From Limnanthes douglasii subsp. nivea (Eukaryota; Streptophyta; Magnoliopsida; Brassicales; Limnanthaceae), in the NCBI GenBank assembly GCA_036936605.1, contig JAUPFV010000005.1:234327770-234391769 (forward strand): DNA of 64,000 nt. Direction: 5' to 3'. The notes below the pieces were generated by a model. It was not told the DNA's origin, did not search any database, and worked only from the letters and a program-made list of their open reading frames with translations. Shown in pieces: positions 620-45,501 of the stretch. Both the position numbers and the translations under genes were made by a program. Positions within the stretch are counted from its first letter, which is position 1. The number at the start of each line of letters is the position of its first letter.

Positions 620-2473
620 GTAATGGCCCCCCTTCTTATCTTCCAAACGATATGTCCCAAGTTTGATCTTTTTTACCACTGAATACGGTCATTCCCAGTT
701 CAAACCCAGTTTACCCAGCATATTTTCCTTGGTATGCAAAAAGCATTTTCTCAACACTTTATCTCCTAATTTAAAATCCATTCGTCTTACCTTGGAAGCA
801 TAACGAGTCCTCATGAATGTTTGGTGATGAAGTGAATTTAAATGTGTCATTATCCTTTTTCCTTCTAGCAAACCAAGCTATACTATTTTAGCTTCTTCAT
901 TATCATCCTCATAATAGTACAGTACTCTATATGATAAAAGAGTAGATTCTGCTAGGATGACTGTATTCATTCCATACACCAGGAATTTTCCTCAGTTGCA
1001 GTCCGAGGGGTCGTTCGGATAGGCCCGTAACACCTCTTGAAAATAATTAGGCCACGTTCCAACTGCACCTTCGAAATTTTTCTTAATACCATCCAAGATT
1101 TTTATATTAGTAACTTCTACCTGGAAATTTACTTGTAGATGAAAAGGTGTTAAAAAACATTGCTTGATTTCTCTCGAAGAACAAAAGGATTTTATCTATT
1201 TGTTGTTGAATTGAGGTCCATTATCTGTGGTAATTATTTGAGGCACCCCAAATCTACAACAAATATTCGATAAAATAAACTTGATGACATCTTTAGCTCT
1301 TGTTTAATCTACTGCGACAATAATAGTTTGATGCCCTCCCGAAGACATTGGTAATGGCCTACCAAGTCTATCCCCAATATATCAAATGAGAGCACCTCAT
1401 AAATTAAATTTAGTGGTACAACTAGAATATGAATGAGATTTGTGAATCTCTGACAAGTATCACAATTTCAAACTAAAATTTTGGTATCAATCGTTATGAT
1501 AGGCCAATAATACCATGTTAATAATACTCTTATTGTTAAAAACTTGATACCACAATAAGCGTAACCTTCCTCATCACGCAGTTCCACTAAGATTATTTTA
1601 GATTTTTTTCCCTCAAACATCTCAACAATGGTCAACTCAAACATTTCTTATACAATATCCCTATAAGGACTGTAAATCTGTGCGCCTTAAACCTTAGTTT
1701 TTTAGTTAATCTTTTGTCAACTAGTAACGTCCATTTGAGGAAACATTCTTTTAAATCAAACTACCAATCTCGTTCTTCTTCCTTGGCAGCTACAAACACC
1801 TCTTTAGAATATTGACATTGCTCATATTTCATCATTTTAGATGGACTTTATTGTACGAAAATCCAATGATAGATTTCAGAATAAGCAATGGTTCCATAGA
1901 GTTTGCAATAATGTTTTATCCCCGATTGATATATTCAACCGTTAGATAATTGAACATCATTGCCAATCCTCTCTCAATTCTCGCAAATATTTTATGAGTT
2001 GATCTTTTTTAATCTTAGACGTTCCCAACATATAATTCACCACAAGTTATGAATCATTATTCAAACATACTTTCTTAGCTTCATGAATATCTCAATCCAA
2101 CAAGTGTCGTCTTGTATTCAGCTTCATCATTTGACGCTTTAAATCTGAACTGTATGGCTTGATACATGGTCTCCCTCGATGGAGCTACCAGCTGAATTCT
2201 CGCTCCCGATCCTAAAATACTTGAAAATCTATCACTTCTAACCAACCGTTCATCCATTAAAGCCAATTCGTATGTATCATTTTCCTCGATATCAAATCGC
2301 TCAGAAATAAAAACAAGAAAATCAGAAAAACCTTTGGCCTTGATTGTTGCTCGAGTAGTAAATTCAGTGTTATAATCTCTTAACTCTAGAGAGATCCGAA
2401 TAGGTTTTTGTAACGGGATTTCTATCTGAATAGCAAAGGTTTTGGAATAAAGGTAGTCAAATACTTTAAGCAT
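620..2473 (-). pseudogene. Element D: Tat-lineage pol remnant (RNase H to integrase C-terminus)
   Basis: Read on the minus strand. The end of the RT-linked RNase H and the start of the archaeal-type RNase H lie at 2,473-2,081 (NDEAEYKTTLVGLRYS matches the NNEAEYEAALAGLRLA block of elements A and B). A frameshifted zinc-binding and catalytic integrase core follows at about 1,500-1,190 (TTDNGPQF is readable). The integrase C-terminus lies at 871-620 (SKVRRMDFKLGDKVLRK, then TYRLEDKKG). Decay is heavy. The catalytic DGGS of the second RNase H reads DRFS. Just after the first integrase Asp (AVD) an in-frame deletion of 36 bp net leaves a TAA. Polymerase and gag are absent; recognisable sequence ends near 2,500. 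A near-identical copy is at 62,224-64,000. Confidence 0.85.
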
Positions 2474-2639
2474 TTATCCCAATAGGCTTTTCTGAAAGGC
2501 CTTATATAATAAATCTCTCTAATATAAATACTTACCATTACTTTTTATTAATTTACTATTTAATATTTAATATTTACTTTTTACTAACTTACTTAAATTA
2601 CTAAAGCCTAACTAAACAATCTAAAATAACCCGACCCAG

Positions 2640-3180
2640 TTACACCAAAAACCTTAATTTCAAACTCTCTTCTTTAAAGTGTGTTGTACATATGCTTGCT
2701 TCGGCATATATGAATCTACGAGCTGAAAGAACGGGTTCCCCTACATTATCAGGATCTCAGCAAGATCTGGTATCGGTTGGACATCTTAAATACCCGATGG
2801 TGGTGTCACTTAATTTTATTTACCTTGATGATTCTCATAAATATTAGTAGTTGGTTTTTAAGAAGATCTTAATTTGGAGTATGAAGTAACTTGGAAATGG
2901 TTTCTGCTGCTCTTGCGGGTTCCAACTCAAGTGAGAGATTAAAAAATAAAATTCTAGATCATAAGATATTTTGGTAATGTTTGTTTTTATCCTAGTATTT
3001 ACAAATTTTCTTGCTTTATTGAATGAGAATTTTGCAGCCATCACACATACTTGTTCAGTTATTTTTTTAGGCATATGTTCAACAGCTTGAGAATAACAGG
3101 CTGAAGTTGACTCAACTTGAGCAAGAATTGCAACGAGCTCGTTAGCGGGTATGCTATATTCTTTGTTGGGAACCAACTAT
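2640..3180 (+). pseudogene. Fragment of a TGA-type bZIP transcription factor gene
   Basis: At 3,071-3,152 a run of T ending in TTTTTTAG, like a splice acceptor, is followed by codons reading AYVQQLENNRLKLTQLEQEL and then QRAR and a stop. This is the leucine zipper following the basic region in TGA-class bZIP factors (family knowledge). The sequence before it looks like intron with flanking exon pieces. The rest of the gene, including the basic region, is missing, so it is a captured or decayed fragment. A second, more diverged copy is at 22,386-22,880 and shares the flanking intron-like sequence, so the unit was duplicated with its surroundings. Confidence 0.65.
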
Positions 3181-4160
3181 TGAGATTCATTCATGAAAAA
3201 ACTGGTCACTTTTGTTAACAAATGTTGCATATATGGTCAATGCCGCGTGTCAATTAACCATAATGTGTCACGTGGTACCCAAACCTACAAAAAAAATCAC
3301 ATTTGAGACCCAAAATATCCCTCAACTTAATTTTTTACTATTTTACTTTTATTTTAACTTTTTTACTATTTAACTTAGATACTTACTTTAACTTTTTTAC
3401 TATTTAACTTAAATACTTACAATTAATTTTTAATAACCTACCATTTAACACAGGCCTATACTATATTGAGACCTACAATTCAAAAAAGTTCAAAAAAACT
3501 TAAAAAGGCCAAAATATCCCTAATTTATAAAAACCTAAATTCAACCTAAATACCTAGAATTTAACTCTCCCCATCTCTACAAACTACCCAACACTAAAAA
3601 TAACCTAAAACCCCCATAAATCATAATTAGATTATGGATTTGAGAGATTTAAATTACTATTTTTGTTACAATATTTAAGATTTTACATTAGAGATGAGGA
3701 ACCATTAATGAACCATCTGGAAACATAAGTCGAGGTACATTTCTTAATCTTTTTTAGGCTCAAATATTTTTAGCACATATCACGCGAGTGTGTGCATGAA
3801 ATGTGCATGTTACATGCACATTTTTGGCTTAAATTAGGATTGTGTCTCATGGGTGATTTTAGCAAATGTTATGCATAATTGTACGCGATTTTAAGATAAA
3901 TTAGAGTATTGTTCATGCACGATTTTGTTATTATTTGTTCAATCGTATGCATAATTTTGGCAAAAATGTTATGCATGGTTCTTGGAAAATTATATAAATT
4001 TTGATGTAATAAGTGCGAAAGGCTGTGGATTTTGATATAATTTAATGTATATCATAGGAACCGAGATAACAGCCATGTTCGATGGCCGATTATACACATA
4101 TTTTTACTAATAATAACTATTACACCAAATCTAATTTGAACGCATGAGTTGAATTTGAAA
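3181..4160. other. AT-rich stretch without a recognisable gene
   Basis: Very AT-rich, with repeated ACTTTTTTACTATTTAACTTA-like segments at about 3,340-3,430. No reading frame, tRNA-like or transposon-end signature was recognised. Confidence 0.5.
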
Positions 4161-5779: not shown

Positions 5780-6629
5780 TGACGGAGAAGTGATTGTATA
5801 TTCATGTCTCCAACAGTGCAACAAAACTAGTAAAACCCAATGACACATGTAAAGAGCCCCGACCAAGCTGGTAATATAGTTGGCCAATATAAGTTAGCCC
5901 TAGTTATACCTAAACGTGGTCCTATAGTTCTCAACGACCTGTAGATAATCGAGCGATATATTGTTTCCTGTCTTGTTAGATAAAATACAACAACCAAACA
6001 TATAGAACAAATACGTCATGGTCGCCAAATAAATCATATCATCTGAAATCACATTATCGCAAAACTCAACAGTCGAGTATCACTCATGCAAGAAAAACAG
6101 ACATGTCTCCCACTGCCAGCACAGTTACGATCAAACTTCGTCTTAAGATCATAATTATATAAACCTAGTATGCGACCATACCAAGCTATTTGTTAACCTT
6201 TGCTAGGAAACGTAACTAGGTCGAAATCCTGACCTGTAACTGAAAGACTGATGATGGTGTGTATGTCGTCTAGTGTGACTGTTATCTCACCAAAAGCAAA
6301 ATAGAACGTGTTGGTCTGCCCCCATGGGGGTAACCGAGTTGGTTAAGTAAGACATGCTTGTGATTAAAGGTCATGAGTTCGAGTCCCTCTACATACGATT
6401 TCTCGACTGAGCCTGTCGCCTTGTGTGGTTTACCTTCTAGTGTTGGTTTGCAGGCTATTGCATCAGACTGAGAGTTTACCCTGTGCGCACTCATTGCACT
6501 CTGAATAGCGGCTGCGGGTTCCTTCAAAAAAAATAAAAAAAAGAACGTGTTGGTCTCCTGATGTCATATCTCTAAGAATGCCTCTATCATATGACCGTTG
6601 GTAGCCCAACGCGTAAAATAGTTGAGTAG
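5780..6629 (-). pseudogene. Plant mobile domain gene remnant, copy 2, split by a SINE and element A
   Basis: On the minus strand the order is: NGHMIEAFLEI then HQETNTF at about 6,610-6,545, a SINE (6,318-6,541), then FAFGEITVTLDDIHTI and SVTGQDFDLVTFPSKG at about 6,310-6,195, then decayed sequence. ETHTFHLP-GEMTVTLDD is the conserved core of the plant mobile domain (family knowledge). The more N-terminal part continues at 21,231 onwards, beyond element A, because A inserted at 6,625-6,629. Stops in the core show it is dead. Confidence 0.65.
6318..6541 (+). mobile_element. tRNA-derived SINE with 15-bp target site duplication
   Basis: A 224-bp insert flanked by perfect direct copies of AGAACGTGTTGGTCT at 6,303-6,317 and 6,542-6,556. 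The head carries an RNA polymerase III box A (TAACCGAGTTGGTTAAG, 6,331-6,347) and box B (GAGTTCGAGTCCC, 6,375-6,387) at tRNA-like spacing. The tail is A-rich. The 3' half (GCGGCTGCGGGTTCC) resembles the conserved 3' part of Au-type plant SINEs, but the family is not certain. Box B is near-consensus, so the copy is probably fairly young. Confidence 0.88.
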
Positions 6630-6650
6630 TGATAAGGAAGAATAAAAGAC

Positions 6651-6790
6651 AAGGGCCAAAATGCATAGAAATAAATGTATAAGGGTCGAAATGGATAGAA
6701 ATAAATGTATATGGGCCAAAATGCATAGAAATAAATGTATAGGGGCCAAAATGCATTAAAATAAGTGTATAAGGGTTGAAATGCATGAAT
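6651..6790. repeat. 30-bp tandem repeat in the LTR U3
   Basis: ATGCATAGAAATAAATGTAT-type units begin at 6,661, 6,691, 6,721 and 6,751. The same four occur in the 3' LTR (20,813-20,950); B has one unit, which accounts for most of the LTR length difference. Confidence 0.9.
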
Positions 6791-6884
6791 TGTAAAGATA
6801 TAACTAAAATAGGAAGGAACCTTAAATCGGGGACTAAAAGATGTAATTAAACCAAATTAAAGCGTGTGGGGTCCGCAATTGTAC

Positions 6885-6892
6885 TATAAAAG
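6885..6892 (+). promoter_or_regulatory. LTR promoter TATA box
   Basis: TATAAAAG in the context ACTATAAAAGGACC, about 180 bp before the LTR end. The same box is in the 3' LTR (21,047) and in both LTRs of B (e.g. 34,714). It would set the start of the genomic RNA. Confidence 0.75.
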
Positions 6893-7063
6893 GACCACAC
6901 ACGCTTCACGAATCTCGAGATAAATAGTACGACTTTCTCTCTCTACTCTGTTTAGCATTTTCTCTCTCTAGATCTAACACTCAAATATTCTTCTACCTCA
7001 TAATCCTCTATCAACAAATCTTCTCATAACAAAATCACCCTCGGACCATCTTTTAACTCTTCA

Positions 7064-7081
7064 GTGGCGCCGCTTGTGGGA
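7064..7081 (+). other. Primer-binding site of element A
   Basis: GTGGCGCCGCTTGTGGGA directly follows the LTR. The TGGCGCC start fits the primer sites of Tat-lineage elements; the tRNA is not assigned. B and the inverted copy of A read CCGTCTG where this one reads CCGCTTG, so this copy has two changes. Confidence 0.8.
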
Positions 7082-7141
7082 AGCGAAAATCGCTCCGACG
7101 ATAATCACTTCCTAGAAATAATTCCCGTTTCGAGGAGAACC

Positions 7142-9605
7142 ATGGAAGGCCCAGGGGACGATTTGATTGATCACTGCGAGGAAAACATGGAGGCGGATGA
7201 CTTTCAGGACGACTTGGAATCCGAAGGAGAAAGAGGTCGGCGAGTCGAGAACGTTGTCGATGACTCCGCCCTCTTGGCTCAGAGGAATGAACTGCTGTTG
7301 GAAATCGAAAGGTTGAAGGCGGAGAAAGAAGCTGCTCAGAAAAATGTTCTATCTGAGATAAGAAGAGAACCCGTCGAACAAAGGGAGGAGCGGGACGTCG
7401 AAATTCGTCCCAAGAAAAGAGATGATAAATATCGAAGGCGTGAGTGAAGGTCTCCGAGGAGGAGAGAAAAGTACCGTTCGGACTCTGCTACTTCAAGTGA
7501 CTACTCACGGTATAGTATTTCTGAGTCATCTCCCCGGAGATACCACAGGAGGAAAAAGCGTGACCAGATGCGAACTGGTGCTCGAAGGGGAAGGAGTTCG
7601 GAGAGGAAATCCTCACGGGAGAAGAGTCGCCACGACCGAGTTGGTGATCGTTCTCACGAGCAGGCAAAGTTCCTTGGGAAGGATGATATGGGCCCTCGAA
7701 ATTCAGAATGGCAGCAGCAATACACTTTGCCCTCCGATGAGGGTCTGTACTTTTCAAACAACGATAATTTGAGGTCCAACGTTTATCGTACATGACATAA
7801 TTGGAGAGCCTCTCCTCTATCATCGGAGATCTTAGTGGGGAACCTCCCAAAGCACTTTGACATTTCGAAGCTTGAAAAGTTCAATGGGACTCAGGATCCG
7901 GATAATCACATCGAGCAGTTTAAGAACTTTATGATAAACTTTGACGACGATGATAAGCTTTTGTGCAGAGCGTTCTCTCAAACTTTCAAGGGAGTGGCAT
8001 CTAAATGGTACAATAGGCTACCTCAGGGCTCCATTAAGAACTTTGACATGTTCTGGAATATCTTTAGACAACACTTCGTCGGGAGCAAGAAGTTTCGGGC
8101 CAACGGAGATACCATAATCTACTGTAGACAAAAAGTGGGGGAGAGCCTCAAAAACTATACCAATCGCTTTGTCAAAACCAAAACAGATATGGAGTACTGT
8201 AAGGATTCGGTGGCGCTTGCAGCGTTCAGGATGGGCTTGCTCCCCGGGTTGTTGAAAGACACGGTGGCAGAAAGTCAAGCGATGACCTTTGGAGCATTGC
8301 TGGATCAAGTTGAGAATAGAATCTTGGTGGTAGAAACCCAAGCCTCAGAGAAAGGTTCCGGAGAGCAACTGGATCACAATCAATTTCAAAGAACGGAGCC
8401 AAGCTCTCAGGGCCCTCGATCAAACGTTCAAGCTAAAAGCACGGGTCAATATCCTCCAAGGCAAAAATCAAACCCGCAGTACTATGGCAATCAGTCAAAC
8501 TATAATCAAGGGGGCAGATACATGTCAAACAAATGGACTTGACCCGACTACTATGCGGAGTTGACAGAAAATGTCGCTGCAATCTTTGATAAGGCTAAGT
8601 CTTCGGTCACGTTCAGGAAGCCTTTTCCCATACAAACACCAAGGGAAAGCAGAAGTGTCAACAAATATTACAAATATCACGAGGATGTGGGCCATGACAC
8701 TAAGGATTGCATCGCCTTGAAGAAGGAGGTGCAGGCTCTCATTGAGAATGGAATGCTGTTGGAGTATGTCAAGAAACACTCCCAGAAAAATGCCGTGGTA
8801 AAAGCTGTCTCGAAGAATACTGACACAACTAATTTCCGAAGGGGTTGACGATTTTGACATCGAACAAGAGTATTTGGACCCCAAAGTTGGGAGGAACAAT
8901 GTAAACCTGGTAGAGGAAGAAATTCTGAGGGGGAGGGTGGACAGCCTTTGTGCATTTTTCGATTCTTTAGCAATTTTCGGCGGAGACACAATCGCAGGGA
9001 ATTCTAATAGCTCTCGCAAAAGGCACATGGTGAATCTAACCACCCAGATCGAAGCTGGAGTCTCCGCACAAATGCATCGCTCGCCTTCTCCTATTATTTG
9101 TTTTGATGATAATGATATGCGTAATGTTGCAGGCCCTCATGAGGACGCTGTAGTGATCGCGGCGGGCATCACCGGGGATCAGGTTCAAAAAATACTCATC
9201 GATACAGGAAGCTCTGCGAACATTTTGTTTATGAGCACTTACCGCCGCATTTCCGACCCACGGGTCATCCGAAGATCCGATAGGACAATCGTGGGTTTCA
9301 CTGGTGCCACAGCGGTTGTTGTGGGGGAGTTTCAATGTATGGTAGAGTTGGGTCGTGGACCATTCAGAAAAGAGGTAGAGGTACTCTTCATTGTGGTTGA
9401 CGCACCAACGTCTTATAACGCCATCCTGGGACGCTCTTGGTTATCTCGGATGCACGGCGTCATCTCCACGGTGCATCAATGCCTGAAATATGTGGTCGGA
9501 AACAACATTGGAACAGTCAGAAGTAGCCAGAAGATGGCACGAGAATGCTACCAGATAGCCCTGTCTTCCAAAGGGGTTCGAGGAGGGCCCTCTGACCCAG
9601 CATAG
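7142..9605 (+). pseudogene. Element A forward gag-pro (defective)
   Basis: Encodes the capsid polyprotein and aspartic protease. The start is taken at ATG 7,142 (ACCATGGAA, good initiation context), the position conserved in B and in the inverted copy. An acidic N-terminus and an Arg/Ser-rich stretch are followed by the retrotransposon gag domain (GTQDPDNHIEQFKNFMINF, about 7,880-8,090), a zinc-knuckle-like motif (KYHEDVGHDTKDC, about 8,670) and the protease (DTGSSANIL near 9,200, ILGRSWLSRM near 9,430). Breaks: TGA codons at about 7,445, 7,794 and 8,539, and a 5-bp deletion near 8,831 relative to the inverted arm. It ends at the conserved UAG 9,603-9,605. Confidence 0.9.
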
Positions 9606-9611
9606 CAATTA
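9603..9611 (+). promoter_or_regulatory. Leaky stop context between gag-pro and pol
   Basis: TAG CAA TTA, with pol continuing in the same frame. This fits the UAG-CAR-YYA readthrough motif known from tobamoviruses and from the SIRE1 retroelement. The identical nine bases are at 37,434-37,442 in B and, reversed, at 17,963-17,971 in the inverted arm. Confidence 0.75.
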
Positions 9612-12600
9612 AAGGGGCCACCCCCCGAGGCCATCCCTTGCGATGATCCGAGGGAGGCCCCCGGATTTCAAGTCCCAGAGGAAGATTCAGCGACACACGA
9701 GTTCGCGGCTGGCAAAGTTCTGAAAATAGGGGTCCACCTCTCCCCCGAATTTAGAGGGAGGTTAGTTGCTTTTTTGTCTGATAAGCTTGATATGTTTGCT
9801 TGGTGTGCGCAGGATGTCACTGGTGTGCCGGCGGATATTATATGCCACAAGCTCGCGGTACGATCAGATGTCCGACCAATAGTCCAAAAAAGAAGGCCTG
9901 TCTCCCCGTAAAAAGCCTCAGCGATTTTGTCGGAAGTCGAACGGTTGCTAAGCATAGGTCATATTCGCGAATCACATTATCATATATGGGCGTCGAATCC
10001 AGTATTGGTGAGAAAGAAAAATGGCAAGTGGAGAATGTGTATCGACTTCACGGACTTGAACCGAGCTTGTCCTAAAGATCCTTTTCCTGTCCCTCGCATT
10101 GATCAATTAGTGGACTCGACTTCCGGAAATCGATTGCTATCTTTTATGGACGCTTACTCGGGATACAATCAAATCCGACTGGCTGCTACCGATGAAGAAA
10201 GCACTTCTTTCATTACTGGGCGAGGTTTGTATTGTTACAAGGTCATGCCATTCGGGTTAAAAAATGCGGGGGCGACTTACCAGCGCCTGGTCAATAAAAC
10301 CTTCGAGGAGCAGATTGGGCTGAATATGGAAGCTTATATCGACGATATGTTGGTTAAGAGTGAGCACGACGAAGAACATTTTGCTGATCTTGCGGAGACA
10401 TTTCACAACTTGAGTAGAGTCAATCTCAAACTCAATCCGGAAAAGTTCATTTTTGGTGTGCGGTCCGGTAAATTCCTTGGTTATATGATCAGCGAAAAAG
10501 GCATTGAGGCTGACCCTGAGCAGCTAAGAGCTTTGATTGCTATGACTCCTCCTCGAAACATTAAAGAGGTGCAAATCCTGGCAGGACGATTGGCTACTCT
10601 AAATCGATTCATTTCTCGCTCGTCGGATAAGTGTGCCCCGTTCTTTAAAATATTGCGACATGCGAAGCAATTCTGTTGGAGTGAGGAATGTTCGACGGCT
10701 TTTCGTCAAATTCAGGAGTATTTAACCTCTCCGGAAGTTTTGTCTAAACCTTTGGTGGGGGAGACGTTGATCGTCTACGTAGCGGTGTCCGAGTGTGCTG
10801 TTAGTGTTGTTCTCCTTCGAGAAGACAACTCTCTCCTCAGGCCGATTTATTATGTCAGTAAGAGTTTGTTGGAAGCCGAGAAGCGGTATCTTACTTTGGA
10901 AAAGGTGGCTTTGGCGTTGGTGACAACGGCGCGAAAGATGCGGCCTTATTTTCAAGCCCATCCCATTGTGGTTCGAACGACATTTCCTCTGAAAAGTCTA
11001 TTACAAAGACCAGACATCTCTAGCAGGATGACTAAGTGGTCCGTCGAGCTGGGAGACTTTGACATAACATTTGAGCCTCGAACGGCGATAAAATCACAGG
11101 TTTTAGCAGATTTTTTGCTCGAGTTCCACTCAGACAGGGAAGAGCAGGAGGTGTCAGATATAGTCGCCGAGGAAGAATGGGTAATACGAACGGATGGTGG
11201 GTCGAACATCTCCGGCAGCGGAGCAGGTGTTCAGTTAATATCCCCGCAGGGGGTAGCTATGTTCCAAGTCATTCGTTTCGGTTTCAAAGCTACTAATAAT
11301 GAGGCTGAGTATGAGGCAGCTTTAGCCGGCCTGCGTTTAGCTCAAATCTACGGGGCTCGGCGGATAAAATTGATCAGTGACTCTCAGTTGGTGATAAATC
11401 AGGCTTCGGGGGAGTCTGAGGCAAGGAAGGAAACACTTATACATTATTTGAAGCTAATGAAAGACTTGGCGTCGGGTTTTGAGAGCGTCAAGTTCGAGCA
11501 TGTCCGACGAGAATTAAATGTTGTCCCGGATTCTCTCGCCTCTGCTTCACGAACAGAGGGTTATCCTTGGGTTCTGGTCCAGACATGCCCGTCGATCTCA
11601 ATTAGTAAAGACCATGTGATGGACATCTTGGAGGAAAGCCACGCGATCACTCCTGATTGGAGAACAGTCCTCATTGATTTTTTGGCTCATGATGTTTTGC
11701 CCGTTGACAAATATGAAGCCAGAAAAGTTAGATTCAAGTCTCATGGTTACATTTTGCTGGGAGGATTGTTGTATAAAAAATCTTTGAGTCGACCATTGCT
11801 AAGGTGCTTGAGTGGGCCTGAATCACAAATTATCCTTTCCGAGTTGCATGACGGCGAAGGATCCGCTCACTGTGGATATAAGGCTTTGATACGCAGGGTA
11901 TTCTTGGCAGGCTATTATTGGCCAACTATCTCGGCTGATGCAAAAGATTTGGTCAAACGTTGTGACACGTGCTAGCGCTATGCTAATGTAATCCACAAAC
12001 CGGGAGTGTTGATGGAAAGTATCTCAGAGGCAGTTCCTTTTGACAGGTGGGGCGTTGACTTGGTTGGACCTCTACCGATGGCCTCTGGGGGCAGATAGAC
12101 GATAATTGTGGCCGTCGATTATTTTTCTAAGTGGGTAGAAGCTGAACCACTCGCGGGAACAAAGGCCAAAGACGTGATCAAATTTGTTTTATCTAATATT
12201 TGCTGTCGTTTTGGTGTACCGTTGCAGATTACCACGGACAATGGACCACAATTTGATAACAAAGAATTCCAGAGTTTTTGTGTGTTAAGAGGCATACGAC
12301 AATGTTTTTCGGCACCATTTCACCCCCAGGCAAATGGGCAAGTGGAAGTAACTAATCGCACCATCCTCGACGGTTTGAGAAAGAACTTGGAAGGTAAGGC
12401 GGGGAAATGGCCCGACTATTTACAGGAGGTGTTGTGGGCATATCGAACGACCCCCCGAACAGCCACCGCCGTATCCCCATTTGCCTTAGTTTATGGGATG
12501 GATGCCGTGGTCCCTCTGGAGATTCTCTTCCCTTCACATCAAATATCAACTTATGACTCAGACACAAATGACCAGCGTAGAGCATTGGCTTTAGATCTGG

Positions 12601-12893
12601 TGCAGGAAAAGAGACAGCGGGCGCAGCTGACTTCCCTTCACTATCAAACTCTTATGAGGAGTCGATATGCATCCAAAGTCAACCATAGAGACTTTCAGGT
12701 GGGAGACAAGGTCCTACGCAAAGTTTTCTTGCACACTAAGGACAAGAGTTTGGGGAAGTTGGGACCTAACTGGGAAGGCCCCTATGAGGTCACCGAAAGG
12801 ATAAAACCAGGCACATATCGGTTGAAAGATAAAGATGGACGATATCTCCGTTTACCTTGGAATATTGAGCATTTAAAGTTGTACCTCGATTAG
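9606..12893 (+). pseudogene. Element A forward pol: RT, RNase H, archaeal-type RNase H, integrase (defective)
   Basis: In frame with gag-pro. Reverse transcriptase with NGKWRMCIDFTDLNRACPKD (about 10,020-10,080) and active site YIDD (10,335-10,346). RT-linked RNase H, then the second RNase H marking the Tat lineage (IRTDGGSN near 11,190, NNEAEYEAALAGLRLA near 11,300, SDSQLVINQ near 11,380). Integrase zinc motif ending in CDTC near 11,965, catalytic core (AVDYFSKW, TTDNGPQF, ANGQVEVTNR at about 12,110-12,360) and C-terminus to LKLYLD. No chromodomain. Stops: TAA 9,909, TAG 11,973 and TAG about 12,098; the first two are shared with the inverted arm. Compared with B, most differences fall at third codon positions, a sign of past selection on the protein. 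Confidence 0.92.
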
Positions 12894-13056
12894 CAGAGCT
12901 CGGAGATGACATTGTATTTCTTTTCACTTTCTATGTATCCCTTGGGAAACTTTTTTGGTGAGGACACACTCTTTCCTACCCTGTTAGGCACAGGAAGGTT
13001 TTAATGAGGTGTTTCAGTGATCCCCTTCAATACAAAGTTTCTTTGCCTTTAAACTA

Positions 13057-13360
13057 TTTTTTGAGTCACAGTAACATGTGCCTCGAATTTTTGTCCCTCA
13101 CACGATTTTTTGGATCACAGTAACATGTGCTTCGAATTGTTGTCCCTCACACGATTTTTTGGGTCACAGTAACATGTGCCTCGAATTGCTGTACTTCGAT
13201 TTTTTTTTTGGGACCTTCGAACTATTCATCGGGTCACATTAAGGTGTGCCACGATGTTTTGGGACCTTCGAACTATTCATCGGGTCACATTAAGGTGTGC
13301 CACGATGTTTTGGGACCTTCGAACTATTCTTCGGCTCACATTAAGGTGTGCCTCGAAGCA
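13057..13360. repeat. 49-bp and 51-bp tandem repeats downstream of pol (element A)
   Basis: Three 49-bp units (TTTTTTGAGTCACAGTAAC type) start at 13,057, 13,106 and 13,155, followed by three 51-bp units (GGACCTTCGAACTATTC type) at 13,211, 13,262 and 13,313. B has six of the 49-bp units and only decayed traces of the 51-bp type. Confidence 0.9.
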
Positions 13361-13977
13361 ACTCTCAGTTGTGAATCAGAGCATTTTTCCCTGAAATTGT
13401 TTTCAGAGACCCTAAATATTATTCGAAGGCCACGTAAGTTGGAATTCGAAGACTTTATTGCAAGTATAAAACTTGTTAAATTTATTTAAGTACGAATTGT
13501 TCGAAGGCCAAGTAAGTCGGCACTCGAAGACCTTATTTAAAAACATCAAAAATTATTCGAAGGCTAATTATTCGAAGGGCCAGTAACATTGCAAGTATAA
13601 AACTTGTTAAATTTATTTAAGTACGAATTGTTCGAAGGCCAAGTACGTTGAAATTTATTTAAGTAATAATTATTCGAAGGCTAATAAATTTTGGAGTTCG
13701 ATGGCCTTATTACAACCCTAACACTAGTTGTTCGAAGGCCGATAAAATTTGTGAATTTATCCAAGTGCTAATTATTCGAAGGGCCAATAAAATCATAATT
13801 CGAAGAACAATTTATCTAACTGCTAATCATTATGAACTTGTTCCAAATACAGTACATTGACAAGTCAAATATTCAGTGCTCTTCCACAGTTAAAGTAGCA
13901 CAGCAAGTTCCAGTCATTACAAAAAGAGGCCTTTTTAGGCCATATACAAAAAACAGACTTACCTATAGTACTTTTAC
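13361..13977. other. Element A 3' noncoding region rich in TTCGAAGGCC-like motifs
   Basis: No gene. ATTCGAAGGCC and close variants recur many times, separated by AT-rich sequence. The matching part of B (41,330-41,640) and, more loosely, of C (54,890-55,400) has the same flavour. Confidence 0.6.
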
Positions 13978-15275
13978 TCAATCGGCATTTTTCGAGGTAT
14001 CACTCCCCTCACCCTCTGAGTCTTCACTCTCACTTACGACTATTTGGGGAGGGAAAAGTTCTGGGGGGACAAGCTTCCAAAAAAGCCCCAGGTCATACTC
14101 AGGGTGCTCAGCATATATCTGAGTCAACAAGCCAGCTCGAGTAGCAGCATCGCGGGCCTGTAAGGTCTTCAAACATATTGCTGCATAGGCATCCACAGCC
14201 TTTTCCTTCGCTTCTTCAATTTCTACTGGGAAGCCTCTGATCTTTTTCTCCAAGTTATCGCGTTCTCCAACTACTTTTCGAAGAGCCTCAGTGCACTGCT
14301 CGAATCCATCGCAAGCCTTGCGATGCCCTTTTTTGTATTCAGATATCATCAGCTCCTGGGCATCAGTCTTCTCCTTGTACAAATCCCTTTCTTGCTGGCA
14401 ACACCTCTCTAGCATTGTCACATAATTCTCAGAGGCAGAAAGACGCTCATACAAGGCATCAGTTTGGCCCTCGATCACTGCATACTCCTTCTTGGCCTCC
14501 TCGAGTTGAGAGGCAACTAGTGATGCTCTGAACTTGTAGTAATTTTTACGCTTTTCAAGATGGCGCATCTTCTTTCCTCGATTCACTAAAGTATGCAGCA
14601 GCTCCGCAGACTCATCGAAAACTCATCATCCAAGGAGACCTCGAATGAGCTCGAAGGAGACCCTAAATCTGCAGAATCAAATTCGGAAAAATTACCACAA
14701 GCAACGTTTGGGTGAACGAGAAGTGGAGGATTTGTTCGAGGAGCAGGGATAGGAGCCAGCCTTGGACTGTCTTCGAGGGAAGCTAGATGAGAAGCCTCAG
14801 TCAGAAGAGAGTGTAAGGATTGGTAGGAAGTTTCCTTGGGTGATTGGCCACCCCTGTTTTCAGCATCAATTGCATCATCATGGACTTCTCTTTCGAAGTT
14901 AGTCCCTTCATTGTTGTCAGGAGTTTCTCCTCCCTCAGCCTGTTCTTCGATGGGTTCAAGAAGAATACCCTTCCCCTTCAAGTCTTTTTTCTTGCCATCT
15001 TTCTTTGGTGGAAGGATGGGAGCAGGGGAGGAGGAGTGGGATTTGTTGAAGCAATAACACTCGTTCGGGGGGCTTCACTTGTTCGAGGGGCTTCACTTGT
15101 TCGAGGGGCTTCAGTTGTTCGAGGGTCATTAGAGTTCGAGGCCCCTGCATTCTTCGAGGAGTGTGGTTTTTGTTTGTTAGTAGCTATTTTGGGATTTATT
15201 GGTTGGGTTGGTGCTACTTCATCTTCTGGAGGTTCATCCAGGTGACTTTGTGAGCGAGAGCGCTTGGGCAGGTGC
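13978..15275 (-). pseudogene. Element A antisense gene, truncated 3' exon
   Basis: Homologous to exon 2 of the antisense gene of B: PKRSRSQSHL, the APRTSE repeats (18-bp units at about 15,065-15,125), KGKGILLEPIEEQ, FSEFDSADLGSPSSSFEV, KKMRHLEKRKNYYKF and the acidic end SESEDSEGEGSDTSKNAD. The middle is predicted coiled coil. Frameshifts near 14,980 and 14,600 break it. Upstream it stops abruptly at 15,275/15,276, where the inverted integrase begins, so exon 1, intron and promoter are missing. Its first residues are fused in frame to the inverted integrase fragment (SRGIR then HLPKRS). Confidence 0.85.
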
Positions 15276-17968
15276 CGTATGCCTCTTGACACACAAAAAC
15301 TCTGGAATTCTTTGTTATCAAATTGTGGTCCATTGTCCGTGGTAATCTGCAACGGTACACCAAAACGACAGCAAATATTAGATAAAACAAATTTGATCAC
15401 GTCTTTGGCCTTTGTTCCCGTGAGTGGTTCAGCTTCTACCCACTTAGAAAAATAATCGACGGCCACAATTATCGTCTGTCTGCCCCCAGAGGCCATCGGT
15501 AGAGGTCCAACCAAGTCAACGCCCCACCTGTCAAAAGGAACTGCCTCTGAGATACTTTCCATCAACACTCCCGGTTTGTGGATTACATTAGCATAGCGCT
15601 AGCACGTGTCACAACGTTTGACCAAATCTTTTGCATCAGCCGAGATAGTTGGCCAATAATAGCCTGCCAAGAATACCCTGCGTATCAAAGCCTTATATCC
15701 ACAGTGAGCGGATCCTTCGCCGTCATGCAACTCGGAAAGGATAATTTGTGATTCAGGCCCACTCAAGCAACTTAGCAATGGTCGACTCAAAGATTTTTTA
15801 TACAACAATCCTCCCAGCAAAATGTAACCATGAGACTTGAATCTAACTTTTCTGGCTTCATATTTGTCAACGGGCAAAACGTCATGAGCCAAAAAATCAA
15901 TGAGGACTGTTCTCCAATCAGGAGTGATCGCGTGGCTTTCCTCCGAGATGTCCATCACATGGTCTTTACTAATTGAGATCGACGGGCATGTCTGGACCAG
16001 AACCCAAGGATAACCCTCTGTTCGTGAAGCAGAGGCGAGAGAATCCGGGACAGCATTTAATTCTCGTCGGACATGCTCGAACTTGACGCTCTCAAAATCC
16101 GACGCCAAGTCTTTCATTAGCTTCAAATAATGTATAAGTGTTTCCTTCCTTGCCTCAGACTCCCCCGAAGCCTGATTTATCACCAGCTGAGAGTCACTGA
16201 TCAATTTTATCCGTCGAGCCCCGTAGATTTGAGCTAAACGCAGGCCGGCTAAAGCTGCCTCATACTCAGCCTCATTATTAGTAGCTTTGAAACCGAAACG
16301 AATGGCTTGGAACATAGCTACCCCTGCGGGGATATTAACTGAACACCTGCTCCGCTGTCGGAGATGTTCGACCCACCATCCGTCCGTATTACCCATTCTT
16401 CCTCGGCGACTATATCTGACACCTCCTGCTCTTCCCTGTCTGAGTGGAACTCGACCAAAAAATCTGCTAAAACCTGTGTTTTTATCGCCGTTCGAGGCTC
16501 AAATGTTATGTCAAAGTCTCCCAGCTCGACGGACCACTTAGTCATCCTGCCAGAGATGTCTGGTCTTTGTAATAGACTTTTCAGGGGAAATGTCGTTCGA
16601 ACCACAATGGGATGGGCTTGAAAATAAGGCCGCATCTTTCGCGCCGCTGTCACCAACGCCAAAGCCACCTTTTCCAAAGTAAGATACCGCTTCTCGGCGT
16701 CCAACAAACTCTTACTGATATAATAAATCGTCCTTAGGAGAGAGTTGTCTTCTCGAAAGAGAACAACACTAACAGCACACTCGGACACCGCTACGTAGAC
16801 GATCAACGTCTCCCCCACCAAAGGTTTAAACAAAACTTCCGGAGAGGTTAAATACTCCTGAATTTGACGAAAAGCCGTCGAACATTCCTCGGTCCAACAG
16901 AATTGCTTCGCATGTCGCAATATTTTAAAGAACGGGGCACACTTATCCGACGAGCGAGAAATGAATCGATTTAGAGTAGCCAATCGTCCTGTCAGGATTT
17001 GCACCTCTTTAATGTTTCGAGGAGGAGTCATAGCAATCAAAGCTCTTAGCTGCTCAGGGTCAGCCTCAATGCCTTTTTCGCTGATCATATAACCAAGGAA
17101 TTTACCGGACCGCACACCAAAAATGAACTTTTCCGGATTGAGTTTGAGATTGACTCTACTCAAGTTGTGAAATGTCTCCGCAAGATCAGCAAAATGTTCT
17201 TCGTCGTGCTCACTCTTAACCAACATATCGTCGATATAAGCTTCCATATTCAGCCCAATCTGCTCCTCGAAGGTTTTATTGACCAGGCGCTGGTAAGTCG
17301 CCCCCGCATTTTTTAACCCGAATGGCATGACCTTGTAACAATACAAACCTCGCCCAGTAATGAAAGAAGTGCTTTCTTCATCGGTACCAGCCAGTCGGAT
17401 TTGATTGTATCCCGAGTAAGCGTCCATAAAAGATAGCAATCGATTTCCGGAAGTCGAGTCCACTAATTGATCAATGCGAGGGACAGGAAAAAGGATCTTT
17501 AGGACAAGCTCGGTTCAAGTCCGTGAAGTCGATACACATTCTCCACTTGCCATTTTTCTTTCTCACCAATACTGGATTCGATGCCCATATATGATAATGT
17601 GATTCGCGAATATGACCTATGCTTAGCAACCGTTCGACTTCCGACAAAATCGCTGAGGCTTTTTACGGGGAGACAGGCCTTCTTTTTTGGACTATTGGTC
17701 GGACATCTGATCGTACCGCGAGCTTGTGGCATATAATTTCCGCCGGCACACCAGTGACATCCTGCGCACACCAAGCGAACATATCAAGCTTATCAGACAA
17801 AAAAGCAACTAACCTCCCTCTAAATTCGGGGGAGAGGTGGACCCCTATTTTCAGAACTTTTCCAGCCGCGAACTCGTGTGTCGCTGAATCTTCCTCTGGG
17901 ACTTGAAATCCGGGGGCCTCCCTCGGATCATCGCAAGGGATGGCCTCGGGGGGTGGCCCCTTTAATTG
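15276..17968 (-). pseudogene. Element A inverted arm: pol copy truncated in integrase
   Basis: Reverse copy of 9,606-12,298. It begins (minus strand) after the inverted UAG and ends inside the integrase core just after CVSRGIR, so the catalytic Glu and C-terminus are missing. It shares the TAA (about 17,665) and the TAG at the zinc motif (about 15,599) with the forward copy. It lacks the forward stop at 12,098 and has its own 1-bp deletion near 16,320. In about 300 bp of RT I counted one difference from the forward arm; in 240 bp around the second RNase H, six. It is far closer to the forward arm (about 98-99 percent) than to B (about 87 percent in a sampled RT stretch). Confidence 0.92.
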
Positions 17969-20437
17969 CTATGCTGGGTCAGAGGGCCCTCCTCGAACCC
18001 CTTTGGAAGACAGGGCTATCTGGTAGCATTCTCGTGCCATCTTCTGGCTACTTCTGACTGTTCCAATGTTGTTTCAGACCACATATTTCAGGCATTGATG
18101 CACCGTGGAGATGACGCCGTGCATCCGAGATAACCAAGAGCGTCCCAGGATGGCGTTATAAGACGTTGGTGCGTCAACCACAATGAAGAGTACCTCTACC
18201 TCTTTTCTGAATGGTCCACGACCCAACTCTACCATACATTGAAACTCCCCCACAACAACCGCTATGGCACCAGTGAAACCCACGATTGTCCTATCGGATC
18301 TTCGGATGACCCGTGGGTCGGAAATGCGGCGGTAAGTGCTCATAAACAAAATGTTCGCAGAGCTTCCTGTATCGATGAGTATTTTTTGAACCTGATCCCC
18401 GACGATGCCCGCCGCGATCACTACAGCGTCCTCATGAGGGCCTGCAACATTACGCATATCATTATCATCAAACACAAATAATAGGAGAAGGCGAGCGATG
18501 CATTTGTGCGGAGACTCCAGCTTCGATCTGGGTGGTTAGATTCACCATGTGCCTTTTGCGAGAGCTATTAGAATTCCCTGCGATTGTGTCTCCGCCGAAA
18601 ATTGCTAAAGAATCGAAAAATGCACAAAGGCTGTCCACCCTCCCCCTCGGAATTTCTTCCTCTACCAGGTTTACATTGTTCCTCCCAACTTTGGGGTCCA
18701 AATACTCTTGTTCGATGTCAAAATCGTCAACCCCTTCGGAAATTACCATGGTTGTGTCAGTATTCTTCGAGACAGCTTTTACCGCGGTATTTTTCTGGAG
18801 TGTTTCTTGACATACTCCAACAGCATTCCATTCTCAATGAGAGCATGCACCTCCTTCTTCAAGACGATGCAATCCTTAGTGCCATGGCCCACATCCTTGT
18901 GATATTTGCAATATTTGTTGACACTTCTGCTTTCCCTTGGTGTTTGTATGGGAAAAGGCTTCCTGAACGTGACCGAAGACTTAGCCTTATCAAAGATCGC
19001 AACGACATTTTCTGTCAACTCCGCATAGTAGTCGGGTCGAGTCCATTTGTTTGACATGTATCTGCCCCCTTGATTATAGTTTGACTGATTGCCATAGTAC
19101 TGCGGGTTTGATTTTTGCCTTGGAGGATATTGACCCGTGCTTTTAGCTTGAACGTTTGATCGAGGGCCCTGAGAGCTTGACTCCGTTCTTTGAAATTGAT
19201 TGTGATCCAGTTGCTCTCCGGAACCTTTCTCCGAGGCTTGGGTTTCTTCCACCAAGATTCTCTTCTCAACTTGATCCAGCAATGCTCCGAAGGTCATCGC
19301 TTGACTTTCTGCCACCGTGTCTTTCAACAACCCGGGGAGCAAGCCCATCCTGAACGCTGCAAGCGCCACCGAATCCTTATAGTACTCCATATCTGTTTTG
19401 GTTTTGACAAAGCGATTGGTATAGTTTTTGAGGCTCTCCCCCACTTTTTGTCGACAGTAGATTATGGTATCTCCGTTGGCCCGAAACTTCTTGCTCCCGA
19501 CGAAGTGTTGTCTAAAGATGTTCCAGAACATGTCAAAGTTCTTAATGGAGCCCTGAGGTAGCCTGTTGTACCATTTAGATGCCACTCCCTTGAAAGTTTG
19601 AGAGAACGCTCTGCACAAAAGCTTATCATCGTCGTCGAAGTTTATCATAAAGTTCTTAAACTGCTCGATGTGATTATCCGGATCCTGAGTCCCATCGAAC
19701 TTTTCAAGCTTCGAAATGTCAAAGTGCTTTGGGAGGTTCCCCACTAAGATCTCCGATGATAGAGGAGAGGCTCTCCAATTATGCCCTGTACGATAAACGT
19801 TGGACCTCAAATTCTCGTTGTTTGAAAAGTACAGACCCTCCTCGGAGGGCAAAGTGTATTGCTGCTGCTATTCTGAATTTCGAGGGCCCATATCATCCTT
19901 CCCAAGGCACTTTGCCTGCTCGTGAGAACGATCACCAACTCGGTCGTGGCGACTCTTCTCCCGTAAGGATTTCCTCTCCGAACTCCTTCCCCTTCGGGCA
20001 CCAGTTCGCCTCTGGTCACGCTTTTTCCTCCTGTGGTATCTCCGGGGAGATGACTCAGAAGTACTATACCGTGAGTAGTCACTTGAAGTAGCAGAGTCCG
20101 AACGGTACTTTTCTCTCCTCTTCGGAGACCTTCGCTCACGCCTCCGATATTTATCATCTCTTTTCTTGGGACGAATTTCGACGTCCCACTCCTTCCTTTG
20201 TTCGACGGGTTCTCTTCTTATCTCAGATCGAACATTTTTCTGAGCAGCTTCTTTCTCCGCCTTCAACCTTTCGATTTCCAACAGCAGTTCATTCCTCTGA
20301 GCCAAGAGGGCGGAGTCATCGACAGCGTTCTCGACTCGCCGACCTCTTTCTCCTTCGGATTCCAAGTCGTCCTAAAAGTCATCCGCCTCCATGTTTTCCT
20401 CGCAGTGATCAATCAAATCGTCCCCTGGGCCTTCCAT
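17969..20437 (-). pseudogene. Element A inverted arm: gag-pro copy
   Basis: Reverse copy of 7,142-9,605, from ATG (20,437-20,435) to the conserved UAG (17,971-17,969). Gag domain, zinc-knuckle-like motif and protease (DTGSSANIL) are readable. Its own breaks include TAG codons near 20,374 and 19,869 and a 1-bp deletion near 18,790, none present in the forward copy. The forward 5-bp deletion and three TGA stops are absent here. The two arms have therefore collected separate mutations since they formed. Confidence 0.9.
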
Positions 20438-20497
20438 GGTTCTCCTCGAAACGGGAATTATTTCTAGGAAGTGATTATCGTCGGAGCGATTTTCGCT

Positions 20498-20515
20498 TCC
20501 CACAGACGGCGCCAC
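20498..20515 (-). other. Inverted primer-binding site, outer end of the inverted arm
   Basis: Reverse complement of GTGGCGCCGTCTGTGGGA. The inverted arm stops exactly here; no U5 follows. The next bases (AACTCGGTGTA) belong to the 3' noncoding region, as comparison with B near 45,187 shows. The junction is thus at the PBS/LTR boundary, the place where minus-strand synthesis ends. Confidence 0.85.
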
Positions 20516-20791
20516 AACTCGGTGTAATTGAAGCTCGAAGAGGCCGTTTTAGATATTCGAGGAGGCTTGCAAACCATTCGAGGATGCTTGCAAACCATTC
20601 GGAGAGGTTTTATGTCGAAGAGGTTTTGTGGAACGATCTTTCGCCTAAGTAGTTCATGGCCTTGACAATACGAAGAGATTCGCGGAGCAACTTTTCGAGG
20701 GACTTATAAAGTTCGAAGAAGAAGTAATTTTGGCCTGTCAGAAGAATTATTCAGTCTTAGCAAAATGATTTTTACTAAGACTGGGGGCTAC
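20516..20791 (+). other. Element A 3' noncoding end and polypurine tract
   Basis: Similar to B 45,187-45,526: TTCGAAGA-type motifs, then TTACTAAGACTGGGGGCTAC immediately before the 3' LTR. The purine-rich AAGACTGGGGG is the likely plus-strand primer. Confidence 0.75.
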
Positions 20792-21225
20792 TGATAAGGA
20801 AGAATAAAAGACAAGGGCCAAAATGCATAGAAATAAATGTATAAGGGTCGAAATGCATAGAAATAAATGTATAGGGGCCAAAATGCATAGAAATAAATGT
20901 ATAGGGGCCAAAATGCATTAAAATAAGTGTATAAGGACTAAAATGCATGAATTGTAAAGATATAGCTAAAATAGGAAGCAACCTTAAATCGGGGACTAAA
21001 AGATGTAATTAAACCAAATTAAAGCGTGTGGGGTCCGCAATTGTACTATAAAAGGACCACACACGCTTCACGAATCTCGAGATAAATAGTACGACTTTCT
21101 CTCTCTACTCTGTTTAGCATTTTCTCTCTCTAGATCTAACACTCAAATATTCCTCTACCTCCTAATCCCCTATCAACAAATCTTCTCATAACAAAATCAC
21201 CCTCGGACCATCTTTTAACTCTTCA
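20792..21225 (+). repeat. Element A 3' LTR
   Basis: 434 bp, same ends as the 5' LTR and the same four 30-bp units. Followed by the target duplication AGTAG (21,226-21,230). Confidence 0.95.
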
Positions 21226-21230
21226 AGTAG

Positions 21231-33659: not shown

Positions 33660-34548
33660 ATGTTGCACAATTGGCGTGGGCGATGACCTTTAATTATATA
33701 TCTCATGCGTGCCTATAATAAATGGTCCACACTATTAGACGTTCTAGAAAAAATAGGCGTAAATCGAGTAGCACGTATGTGTCATTATGAAACATACAGG
33801 TTACCATGCACGTGGGAAATAACTACAATAGAAAAAGAAGGTATATACACTCTTAAAGATGACTTGGATACATTTTAGATAATAGTATATATTGTTCGAA
33901 GATATGCCACTACACATGAAGATGCTCTATTAAAAAAACTATCCATCATAGAAAGTTTGATACCTTACGGGCCTTAACATCAAGATTATATTATTAATAG
34001 GGTTATGCAGATCCTAAATCCTAAAACAAGTCACATTGTAGAGCCTAAAGAGTCGGTTATTACTAAAGATGGACCAAAATCCGACTCGGGCCGACCGACT
34101 AAATGTGACCCTAGTTTATGGGAATATGCCATTGATCAAACCACGAGTGCTAGCACTCCCATGAACACGTTTGGTAGCACAACTGCATCATAAATCCCTT
34201 CATTTTTAGTACCCAAACCTCCTATCATAAAAAATAAATTAGGTTGGCAAAAAAAAACTACGAATAAAGAAAAGTTAAATATGTACTTGGAGTGCATCCC
34301 TACCTTTATACATCCTTATATCAGTAAATTTGAAGACATTATTCGAGACAAACTTTCGGATATCAAACCTTTTCAAGAGAGATATGTGGTAAAGAGGAAA
34401 ATTGGGAATTGGTAAGACGTGATTTATGGTTGGAAGTGTATGGTTTGGCCGATGCTTTAGATGACATGATACGTAGGTTAAATTAGTTTAAGAGTCATTT
34501 GGGTATCCTTTATTGGATGAAATTTCCTGATATTGGATTAGTGGTAGC
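33660..34548 (+). pseudogene. OTU-type protease / MULE-FAR1-associated gene remnant, 5' part
   Basis: A frame at 34,005-34,193 contains NPKTSHIVEPKESV and SGRPTKCDPSLWEYA, like the linker between the FAR1/MULE part and the OTU domain in plant transposon-derived proteins. Then FIHPYISKFEDI (about 34,305-34,340) and, in another frame, EENWELVRRDLWLEV (about 34,395-34,440), typical of the OTU fold. The catalytic block between them is lost and stops are present. Element B inserted at 34,544-34,548; the gene resumes at 45,866. Assignment rests on remembered family patterns. Confidence 0.5.
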
Positions 34549-34889
34549 TGATGAGGGAGAATAAAAGACAAGGGCCAAAATGCATAGAAATAAATGTATA
34601 AGGGCCGAAATGCGTTAATTGTAAAGATATAGCCAAAATAGGAATGCATTTTAGAGTAGGGACCAAAAGATGTAATTAACCCGAATTAAAGCGTGTGGGG
34701 TCCGCAATTGTACTATAAAAGGACCACACACACTTCACGAATTTCGAGATAAATAGTACGACTTTATCTCTCTACTCTTTTAGCACTTTCTCTCTCTAGA
34801 TCTAACACAAATATTCTTCTACTTCTTAATCCTCTATCAACAAATCCTCTCACAATAGAATCACCCTCGGACCATCTTTCAACTCTTCA
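34549..34889 (+). repeat. Element B 5' LTR
   Basis: 341 bp with TG/CA ends, TATAAAA at 34,714, and CT-rich downstream sequence. Only one of the 30-bp U3 units found four times in A. Confidence 0.95.
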
Positions 34890-34907
34890 GTGGCGCCGTC
34901 TGTGGGA
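34890..34907 (+). other. Element B primer-binding site
   Basis: GTGGCGCCGTCTGTGGGA immediately after the LTR, identical to the inverted PBS of A. Confidence 0.8.
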
Positions 34908-34967
34908 AATGAAAATCGCTTCGACGACAATCGTTTCTTAGAAATAATTCCCGTTTCGAGGAGAACC

Positions 34968-37436: not shown

Positions 37437-37442
37437 CAATTA
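37434..37442 (+). promoter_or_regulatory. Leaky stop context between gag-pro and pol
   Basis: TAG CAA TTA; pol follows in the same frame without a frameshift. Same nine bases as in both arms of A. Confidence 0.75.
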
Positions 37443-40400: not shown

Positions 40401-40724
40401 GAAGAGCATAGAGCATTGGCTTTAGACTTGGTGGAGGAAAAAAGGCAGCGAGCACATTTGGCTTCCCTGCACTATCAAACTCTTATGAGGAGCCGATATG
40501 CATCCAAAGTCAACCATAGGGACTTTCAGGTGGGGGACAAAGTCCTACGGAAAATTTTCTTACACACTAAGGACAAGAGTTTGGGGAAGCTGGGCCCTAA
40601 TTGGGAAGGCCCTTATGAGGTCACCGAAAGGATAAAACCGGGTACTTATCGGTTGAAAGATAGAGACGGAAGATATCTCCGCCTACCTTGGAATATTGAG
40701 CATTTAAAGTTGTACCTCGATTAG
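37437..40724 (+). pseudogene. Element B pol (one nonsense codon)
   Basis: Reverse transcriptase with KKNGKWRMCIDFTDLNRACP (about 37,847-37,906) and YIDD (38,166-38,177); RT-linked RNase H (LTGRLAALNRFISRSSDK region); archaeal-type RNase H with RTDGGSN (about 39,018) and NNEAEYEAALAGLRLA; integrase zinc motif (HDGEGSAHCGYKAL to CDTCQRY, about 39,680-39,810), catalytic core with AVDYFSKW, TTDNGPQF and NGQVEVTNR (about 39,935-40,185), and a C-terminal domain ending LKLYLD. No chromodomain. The only break is TGA at 39,879-39,881, where A reads Trp (DRWGVDL). Otherwise open for about 1,095 codons. Confidence 0.93.
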
Positions 40725-40884
40725 CAGAGTTCGGAGAAAATATTGTATTTCTTTTCACTGTCTATGTATCCCTCGGGAAAATTTTTGGTGAGGACGCACT
40801 CTTTCCTACCCTGTTAGGCACAGGAAGGTTTTAACGAGGTGTTTCGATGATCCCATTAATACAACATTTCTTTGCCTTCAACTA

Positions 40885-41178
40885 TTTTTTGAGTCACAAT
40901 AACATGTGCCTCGAATTGTTGTCCCTCACACTATTTTTTGAGTCACAATAACATGTGCCTCGAATTGTTGTCCCTCGCACTATTTTTTGAGTCACAATAA
41001 CATGTGCCTCGAATTGTTGTCCCTCACACTATTTTTTGAGTCACAATAACATGTGCCTCGAATTGTTGTCCCTCACACTATTTTTTGAGTCACAGTAACA
41101 TGTGCCTCGAATTGTTGTCAATTACACTATTTTTTCAGTCACAATAATATGTGCCTTGAATTTCTGATCTTCGAATTA
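40885..41178. repeat. 49-bp tandem repeat downstream of pol (element B)
   Basis: Six units beginning TTTTTTGAGTCACAATAACA at 40,885, 40,934, 40,983, 41,032, 41,081 and 41,130, an exact 49-bp period. Confidence 0.95.
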
Positions 41179-41179
41179 T

Positions 41180-41714
41180 TTTTTGGGGCTATCGAACTAT
41201 TCATTGGGTCACATTAAAAGTGTACGACGATGTTTTGGGGACCTTCAAACTATTCTTTGGATTACATTAAGGTGTACCTCGAAGCAATTTTCAGTTATAA
41301 GTTAGAATATTTTCTCTTTCCGATTGTTTTCGAAGACCTTGAAATTATTCGAGGGCCAATAAATTCGAGTTCTATGGCCATTCAGTTTGAAGTCTGATGG
41401 CCTTATTACAAACATAAAATTCTATTAGAGATCCTGCACGTTATTCGAAGGCCACATAAGTTGGAATTCAAAGGCCTAACTACAAATATAAAACTTGGTA
41501 AATTTATCAGTCATTATTATTTGAAGGGCTACATTCGAAGGCCGCATAAGTTGGAGTTCGCAGGCTTAGTTGCAAGTATATAACTATTGTTCGAAGAGTT
41601 AGTGGAATAATAAGTTCGAGGAACGCTATATCGATAAGTTGAAATATTCCAGACATTACAAAAAGTGGCCTTTCTTAGGCCATACACAAAAAAATATCCC
41701 TACAGCAACTTTGT
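41180..41714. other. Element B 3' noncoding region before the antisense gene end
   Basis: Decayed 51-bp-type sequence (GGTCACATTAA) at about 41,200-41,280 and many TTCGAAGGCC-like motifs. No gene. Confidence 0.6.
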
Positions 41715-44826: not shown

Positions 44827-44881
44827 TTTATCTCTCTAGAACTAATTGAACAAAAGTTGCATTAATGAAGGAAAATGTTGG

Positions 44882-44889
44882 TATTTATA
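44882..44889 (-). promoter_or_regulatory. TATA box of the antisense gene
   Basis: TATAAATA on the minus strand (TCTATAAATACC), about 56 bp before the possible CTG start. Element C has the same box at the matching place (58,881-58,874). Confidence 0.65.
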
Positions 44890-45450: not shown

Positions 45451-45501
45451 AAGAGATTTTGGCCGGTCAGAAGAATTATTCAGTCTTAGCAAAACAATTT
45501 T

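Follow-up and report, generated by a model that had tools for sequence, protein, structure and literature searches.

An inverted duplicate of the gag-pol region within one pair of long terminal repeats in a retrotransposon of Limnanthes douglasii subsp. nivea: a locus with the potential for a long hairpin

How does a retrotransposon come to carry an inverted copy of its own gag-pol region, and could such a copy act in silencing? The question is raised by element A, a long terminal repeat (LTR) retrotransposon at positions 6630–21225 of a 64-kb stretch of the Limnanthes douglasii subsp. nivea genome (the window), for which 1.78 Gb of genome sequence were searched. Its 5' LTR (6630–7063) and 3' LTR (20792–21225), both on the forward strand, are 434 bp long, have the ends TG...CA and differ at 10 of 434 positions. 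The target-site duplication (TSD) AGTAG flanks the element on the left (6625–6629) and on the right (21226–21230). Based on self-BLAST, arm 1 (7064–12301, forward strand) recurs on the opposite strand as arm 2 (20515–15273) with 98.3% identity over 5245 columns, and in the MAFFT alignment of the same length the arms differ by 79 substitutions and nine gap columns. The loop between them (12302–15272) has 2971 bases, and both arms are enclosed by the single LTR pair, with no further LTR inside the element. The inverted repeat is confirmed, and chance can be dismissed because the arms are so long and so nearly identical. An earlier, sequence-only reading had described a 5.2-kb repeat, 98–99% identical, around a 3.0-kb loop within one LTR pair with AGTAG duplications; all of this was borne out, except that its inner edges (12298 and 15276) fall three bases short of those found here.

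The domains point to the kind of element in which the inversion arose. Arm 1 begins with a one-base spacer (G, 7064) and a sequence which we take to be the primer binding site (PBS; 7065–7082, forward strand), and its open reading frames (ORFs) contain the Pfam domains gag, RVT_1, RNase H, RVT_3 and Integrase_H2C2, together with a protease match that is weak and below cut-off; the arm ends in the first part of the integrase. The loop (forward strand), which is collinear with 40133–43015 of the relative described next, holds the remaining integrase, tandem arrays with units of 49, 51 and 18 bp (13056–13192, 13206–13356 and 15058–15125) and an antisense ORF (13978–14586, minus strand). Element B (34549–45865, forward strand), with the TSD GTAGC on both sides, is 88% identical to A in the arm region, and a third relative, C, about 123 kb downstream of A (L029–L030), is 84% identical in two blocks of that region; neither has an inversion. 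The ORFs of A and B encode gag, reverse transcriptase, RNase H, RVT_3 (a second RNase H-like domain) and integrase, in the Ty3/gypsy order. Between pol and the 3' LTR, B carries two antisense ORFs (41715–43322 and 43405–44790, minus strand) and, within the element, tandem arrays at 40881–41162, 42786–42869, 44236–44406 and 45227–45452. The second of these ORFs matches PF04195 (TRP28 domain) at 22.5 bits (E = 1.4e-4), short of the curated cut-off (26.2), in a segment that A has lost. Judged by its domains and antisense ORFs, the host element looks like a Retand-type Ty3/gypsy retrotransposon. The frames of both arms are interrupted. The 120 protein relatives listed are at most 65% identical. 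The target words of A and B overlap (AGTAG; GTAGC, at 34544–34548 and 45866–45870), possibly reflecting a weak target preference. Elsewhere in the window, 59406–61610 contains the remains of a copia-type element (gag, GAG-pre-integrase and integrase).

What A has lost and gained can be seen by comparison with these relatives. From the 5' LTR to 15271/15272, A is collinear with B and C, and beyond this point the relatives read there, namely B, C and four of the A subfamily, continue into further sequence without any inversion. By coordinate arithmetic, the stretch missing from A amounts to 2155–2272 bases in the four A-subfamily relatives and 2172 in B (43016–45187), where it includes the antisense ORF that weakly matches PF04195. 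In its place A has arm 2, that is, the inverted PBS, gag and pol (15273–20515, minus strand), followed by the last 275 bases of the internal region (20517–20791, forward strand; here called X), which include the G-run of the polypurine tract (PPT) at 20783–20787, and then by the 3' LTR.

The two junctions differ in character. At the outer one (20515–20517), arm 2 runs through the complement of the PBS (20497–20514, minus strand) and of the one-base spacer and stops precisely at the boundary to the LTR (20515); a single A (20516) matching neither side follows, and X begins. In all nine relatives read, the start of X is preceded by GGATTGAGGGG and a few bases, a PPT-like tract, so that the junction joins X 2–3 nt past its G-run; B and C carry a like tract. 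At the inner junction (15271–15273), the parental sequence ends at 15271, a single G (15272) matches neither parent, and arm 2 begins within the integrase at 15273, as judged from all four relatives read. The odd base at each junction could alternatively be a later substitution. The LTR/PBS boundary is where minus-strand cDNA (complementary DNA) ends. Presumed reverse-transcription termini lie on both sides of the outer junction, namely the LTR/PBS boundary and the PPT-like edge, and no known landmark lies at the inner one; PBS and PPT are presumptive labels. The PPT-like tract itself, about 275–340 bases before the 3' LTR (B 45174–45187; C, in L029, about 9723–9733; nine A relatives, L031–L039), is a second tract that resembles the true PPT, and is perhaps a second plus-strand start.

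The kinship of the arms was examined in a tree of 1295 columns from about 1.3 kb of the 5.2-kb arms, with B and pieces of eight relatives, chosen as the top eight X matches among the 39 scored places outside A; one of them (L042), covering 544 of the 1295 columns, was kept in the tree and left out of trimming. The arms were sisters (ultrafast bootstrap 93), differing from each other at 17 of 1288 positions and from the nearest other copy at 28 of 1289, and they share three exclusive states. Arm 2 therefore seems to have come from the source of arm 1 itself or from a very close one. Derivation from a different family copy was considered and is not supported, since the arms are each other's closest sequences in the sample; a closer copy outside the sample is possible. 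The divergence of the arms (1.51%, confidence interval (CI) 1.20–1.88) is not distinguishable from that of the LTRs (2.30%, CI 1.11–4.20; Fisher p = 0.22). Among the 79 substitutions, 45 could be assigned to arm 1 and 31 to arm 2, with three left unassigned (45/76, p = 0.14). Among the polarised C>T and G>A changes, 28 of 44 fall at CG and CHG sites (vs 39% of C/G sites; p = 0.0017), an excess typical of methylated DNA; the comparison was made within the arms.

The insertion site is preserved nearby, as the window lies within a tandem array of large units, each about 36 kb by coordinate arithmetic when A and B are left out. Uninterrupted sites with a single AGTAG exist in the neighbouring units L017 and L021, and L011 aligns across the site at 96%, although the exact site word was not found in it. 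All units that reach A's site (L011, L017 and L021) lack A, and those that reach B's site (L013 and L018) lack B. Compared in aligned blocks of more than 400 bases at 93% identity or more, and with double counting of the unit overlap at both ends of the window, the neighbouring units without A (region L011–L022) show substitution differences of 1.10%, 1.52% and 1.54% from the unit in the window, broadly the same range as the arms. A repeat at 717–2497 and 62219–64000 was considered as the LTR pair of an enclosing element and rejected, as it looks like the boundary of the array unit.

With moderate confidence we regard element A as a single rearranged Retand-type copy, formed as an aberrant product of reverse transcription, integrated as one unit and capable of forming a hairpin. 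A growing DNA strand would have left the region between pol and the 3' LTR at 15271 and switched, presumably within the integrase, to a gag-pol template; it would have copied this back to where the template ends, at the LTR/PBS boundary, and, after the addition of one extra base, switched a second time, to the region just past the PPT-like tract, to complete X and the 3' LTR. Once full-length, this aberrant cDNA would have integrated with a normal 5-bp duplication. Two template switches followed by integration as a unit are the simplest reading, an origin that the sequence-only reading had not noticed. In its favour are the one LTR pair, the TSD, the uninterrupted neighbouring sites, the collinear and uninverted B and C, the arm end at the PBS edge, the start of X at the PPT-like edge, the one odd base at each junction, the sister relationship of the arms, the similar divergence of arms and LTRs, and the single occurrence of each junction. 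If instead a normal insertion had later suffered a chromosome break between pol and the 3' LTR, with a loss of about 2.2 kb that was patched by an inverted cDNA fragment ending at the PBS, then the little or no homology at the junctions, their one extra base each, the loss of the segment between 15272 and X, and the point estimate of arm divergence, which is below that of the LTRs, would all be accounted for. Such patching, however, requires a family cDNA then nearly identical to arm 1, the arms being sisters among the sampled copies, and it makes the break edge at the PPT-like tract a coincidence; we judge it unlikely. The same junction features are also explained if two or three cDNA pieces, one of them without a 5' LTR and ending at the PBS, were end-joined by the host before the composite integrated, the PBS edge being a natural cDNA end. 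This needs two joinings of separate ends, where template switching needs two jumps; sequence alone cannot tell the two apart, and we hold the joining of pieces to be improbable. A nested antisense insertion followed by deletion was rejected as less simple, given that no internal LTR exists and that the arm ends exactly at the LTR/PBS boundary. It is very improbable that A is an assembly artefact, that is, a false inversion or a chimera of two family copies. The family is indeed repetitive (1989 first-look candidates for the X query) and the locus is known from the assembly alone; however, the arms differ by 79 substitutions and are sisters, the edges of the outer junction sit at landmarks of the element, and the TSD is clean, with uninterrupted sites nearby.

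Several observations weigh against the favoured reading, an aberrant reverse-transcription product integrated as one unit. The inner junction coincides with no known landmark, and end joining, whether before integration or after it, would also leave junctions with one base of homology or none. The PPT-like edge was recognized post hoc, and runs of five or more G are common (21 in B); for these reasons the edge is supporting, not decisive. The similar divergence of arms and LTRs would also fit a rearrangement soon after insertion. The closest array unit (1.10%) lacks A, yet the arms differ by 1.51%, an excess that may come from faster change in element DNA or from exchange between units. Substitutions are distributed unevenly along the arms (variance/mean 1.91, p = 0.009; columns of about 2000–3500 vs the rest), perhaps through gene conversion or local rate differences. 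Finally, the junction kinds that were searched for revealed no further event.

The rearranged form seems to be unique. A genome search tolerating up to three mismatches gave a single match to the inner junction, and a gapped exact pattern gave a single match to the outer one; the control patterns (a reversed pattern for the inner junction) gave none in either search. Among 40 scored places of the 1989 candidates for an X-containing query, only the locus of element A spans the outer junction. Exact patterns for A's family, by which diverged cases are missed, gave no genome match either for junctions of the same kind at an LTR start or for head-to-head PBS palindromes. A mobile hairpin family is not supported, each junction having been found once, and the rearranged form has probably not multiplied, as far as the searched patterns show.

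Could the locus silence other elements? Its potential for a long hairpin, proposed in the sequence-only reading, is supported: the arms are about 5.2 kb long, share 3547 distinct 24-mers (arm 1 has 5215 24-mer positions) and are framed by LTRs. Transcription from the 5' LTR would yield a hairpin of about 5.2 kb, 98% paired, which could supply gag-pol small RNAs against its own subfamily. None of the 21-mers or 24-mers of the 5' LTR occurs in the arms on either strand; small RNAs derived from the arms would therefore target gag-pol and not the LTR promoter directly. Perfect 24-mer matches to an arm make up 18–66% in eight A-subfamily pieces of 1.6 kb each, 6.3% in B and 2.0% in C. Because the match to B is so low, such small RNAs would act on the A subfamily and hardly on B, and the earlier suggestion that B belongs to the targets is weakened. 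Element A is likely an inert, methylated, dead element without a silencing role, a view that is compatible with any origin. It agrees with the single occurrence of each junction, the lack of LTR words in the arms, the CG/CHG bias known from methylated DNA and the interrupted frames of both arms, whereas the high hairpin potential and the high match to the A subfamily stand against it. Past or present silencing activity of any measurable kind by A appears rather unlikely. It is quite improbable that LTR retrotransposons make their own silencers, with template switching at the PBS end in the course of reverse transcription yielding an integrated, LTR-driven gag-pol hairpin, and that small RNAs from A helped to silence its Retand subfamily, with a possible contribution from antisense transcription reaching arm 2, which, read from the minus strand, is sense gag-pol.

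Retand elements are described as having antisense ORFs and tandem arrays in a long stretch that separates pol from the 3' LTR (PMC11963269), and A and B share with them these features as well as the Ty3-type pol order and the 5-bp TSD; the word 'inverted' occurs 0 times in the main text of that paper. In the titles and abstract openings that literature searches listed, no LTR element was described whose gag-pol recurs in inverted form within a single LTR pair. Inverted or template-switched cDNAs are familiar as aberrant products of retroviral and Ty1 reverse transcription, and this is the likeness of A to them; the literature searches for a precedent among such products resembling A, and for internal inversions of proviruses, retrieved none.

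Little is said to be understood of how a new LTR retrotransposon first comes to be silenced; hairpins arising from rearranged copies have been proposed as one trigger (PMC11624286). Element A is a natural example of such a rearranged copy, one whose junctions are defined and whose age can be roughly estimated. If the proposed origin is true, reverse transcriptase alone can build hairpins within one replication cycle, and the product is able to integrate. The maize locus Muk, to which the sequence-only reading had likened A, is an inverted duplication of part of MuDR which gives a 2.4-kb hairpin and heritable silencing of MuDR (PMC2563033, PMC2725412), and the terminal inverted repeats of MuDR become methylated (PMC2563033). 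The parallel stands in anatomy only: in both cases part of a transposon has been duplicated and inverted, with the potential for a long hairpin RNA (PMC2563033). Muk, however, derives from a DNA transposon, with a reported transcript, small RNAs and silencing, whereas A is known here from its sequence; moreover, terminal repeats are affected by Muk (PMC2563033), and the arms of A contain no LTR words. That terminal or promoter sequence in the arms is what defines Muk, we infer from its effect on the terminal repeats (PMC2563033). If a hairpin contains no LTR sequence, its effect may be on RNA, with the promoter left unsilenced. In Arabidopsis, an antisense nested EVD insertion is a proposed, experimentally unproven hairpin source for silencing (PMC11624286), and A resembles it as an arrangement of an LTR element with that possible role. 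This situation is different from that of A in its parts, since EVD inserted into EVD brings antisense LTRs (PMC11624286), whereas A has no internal LTR and its arms consist of gag-pol.
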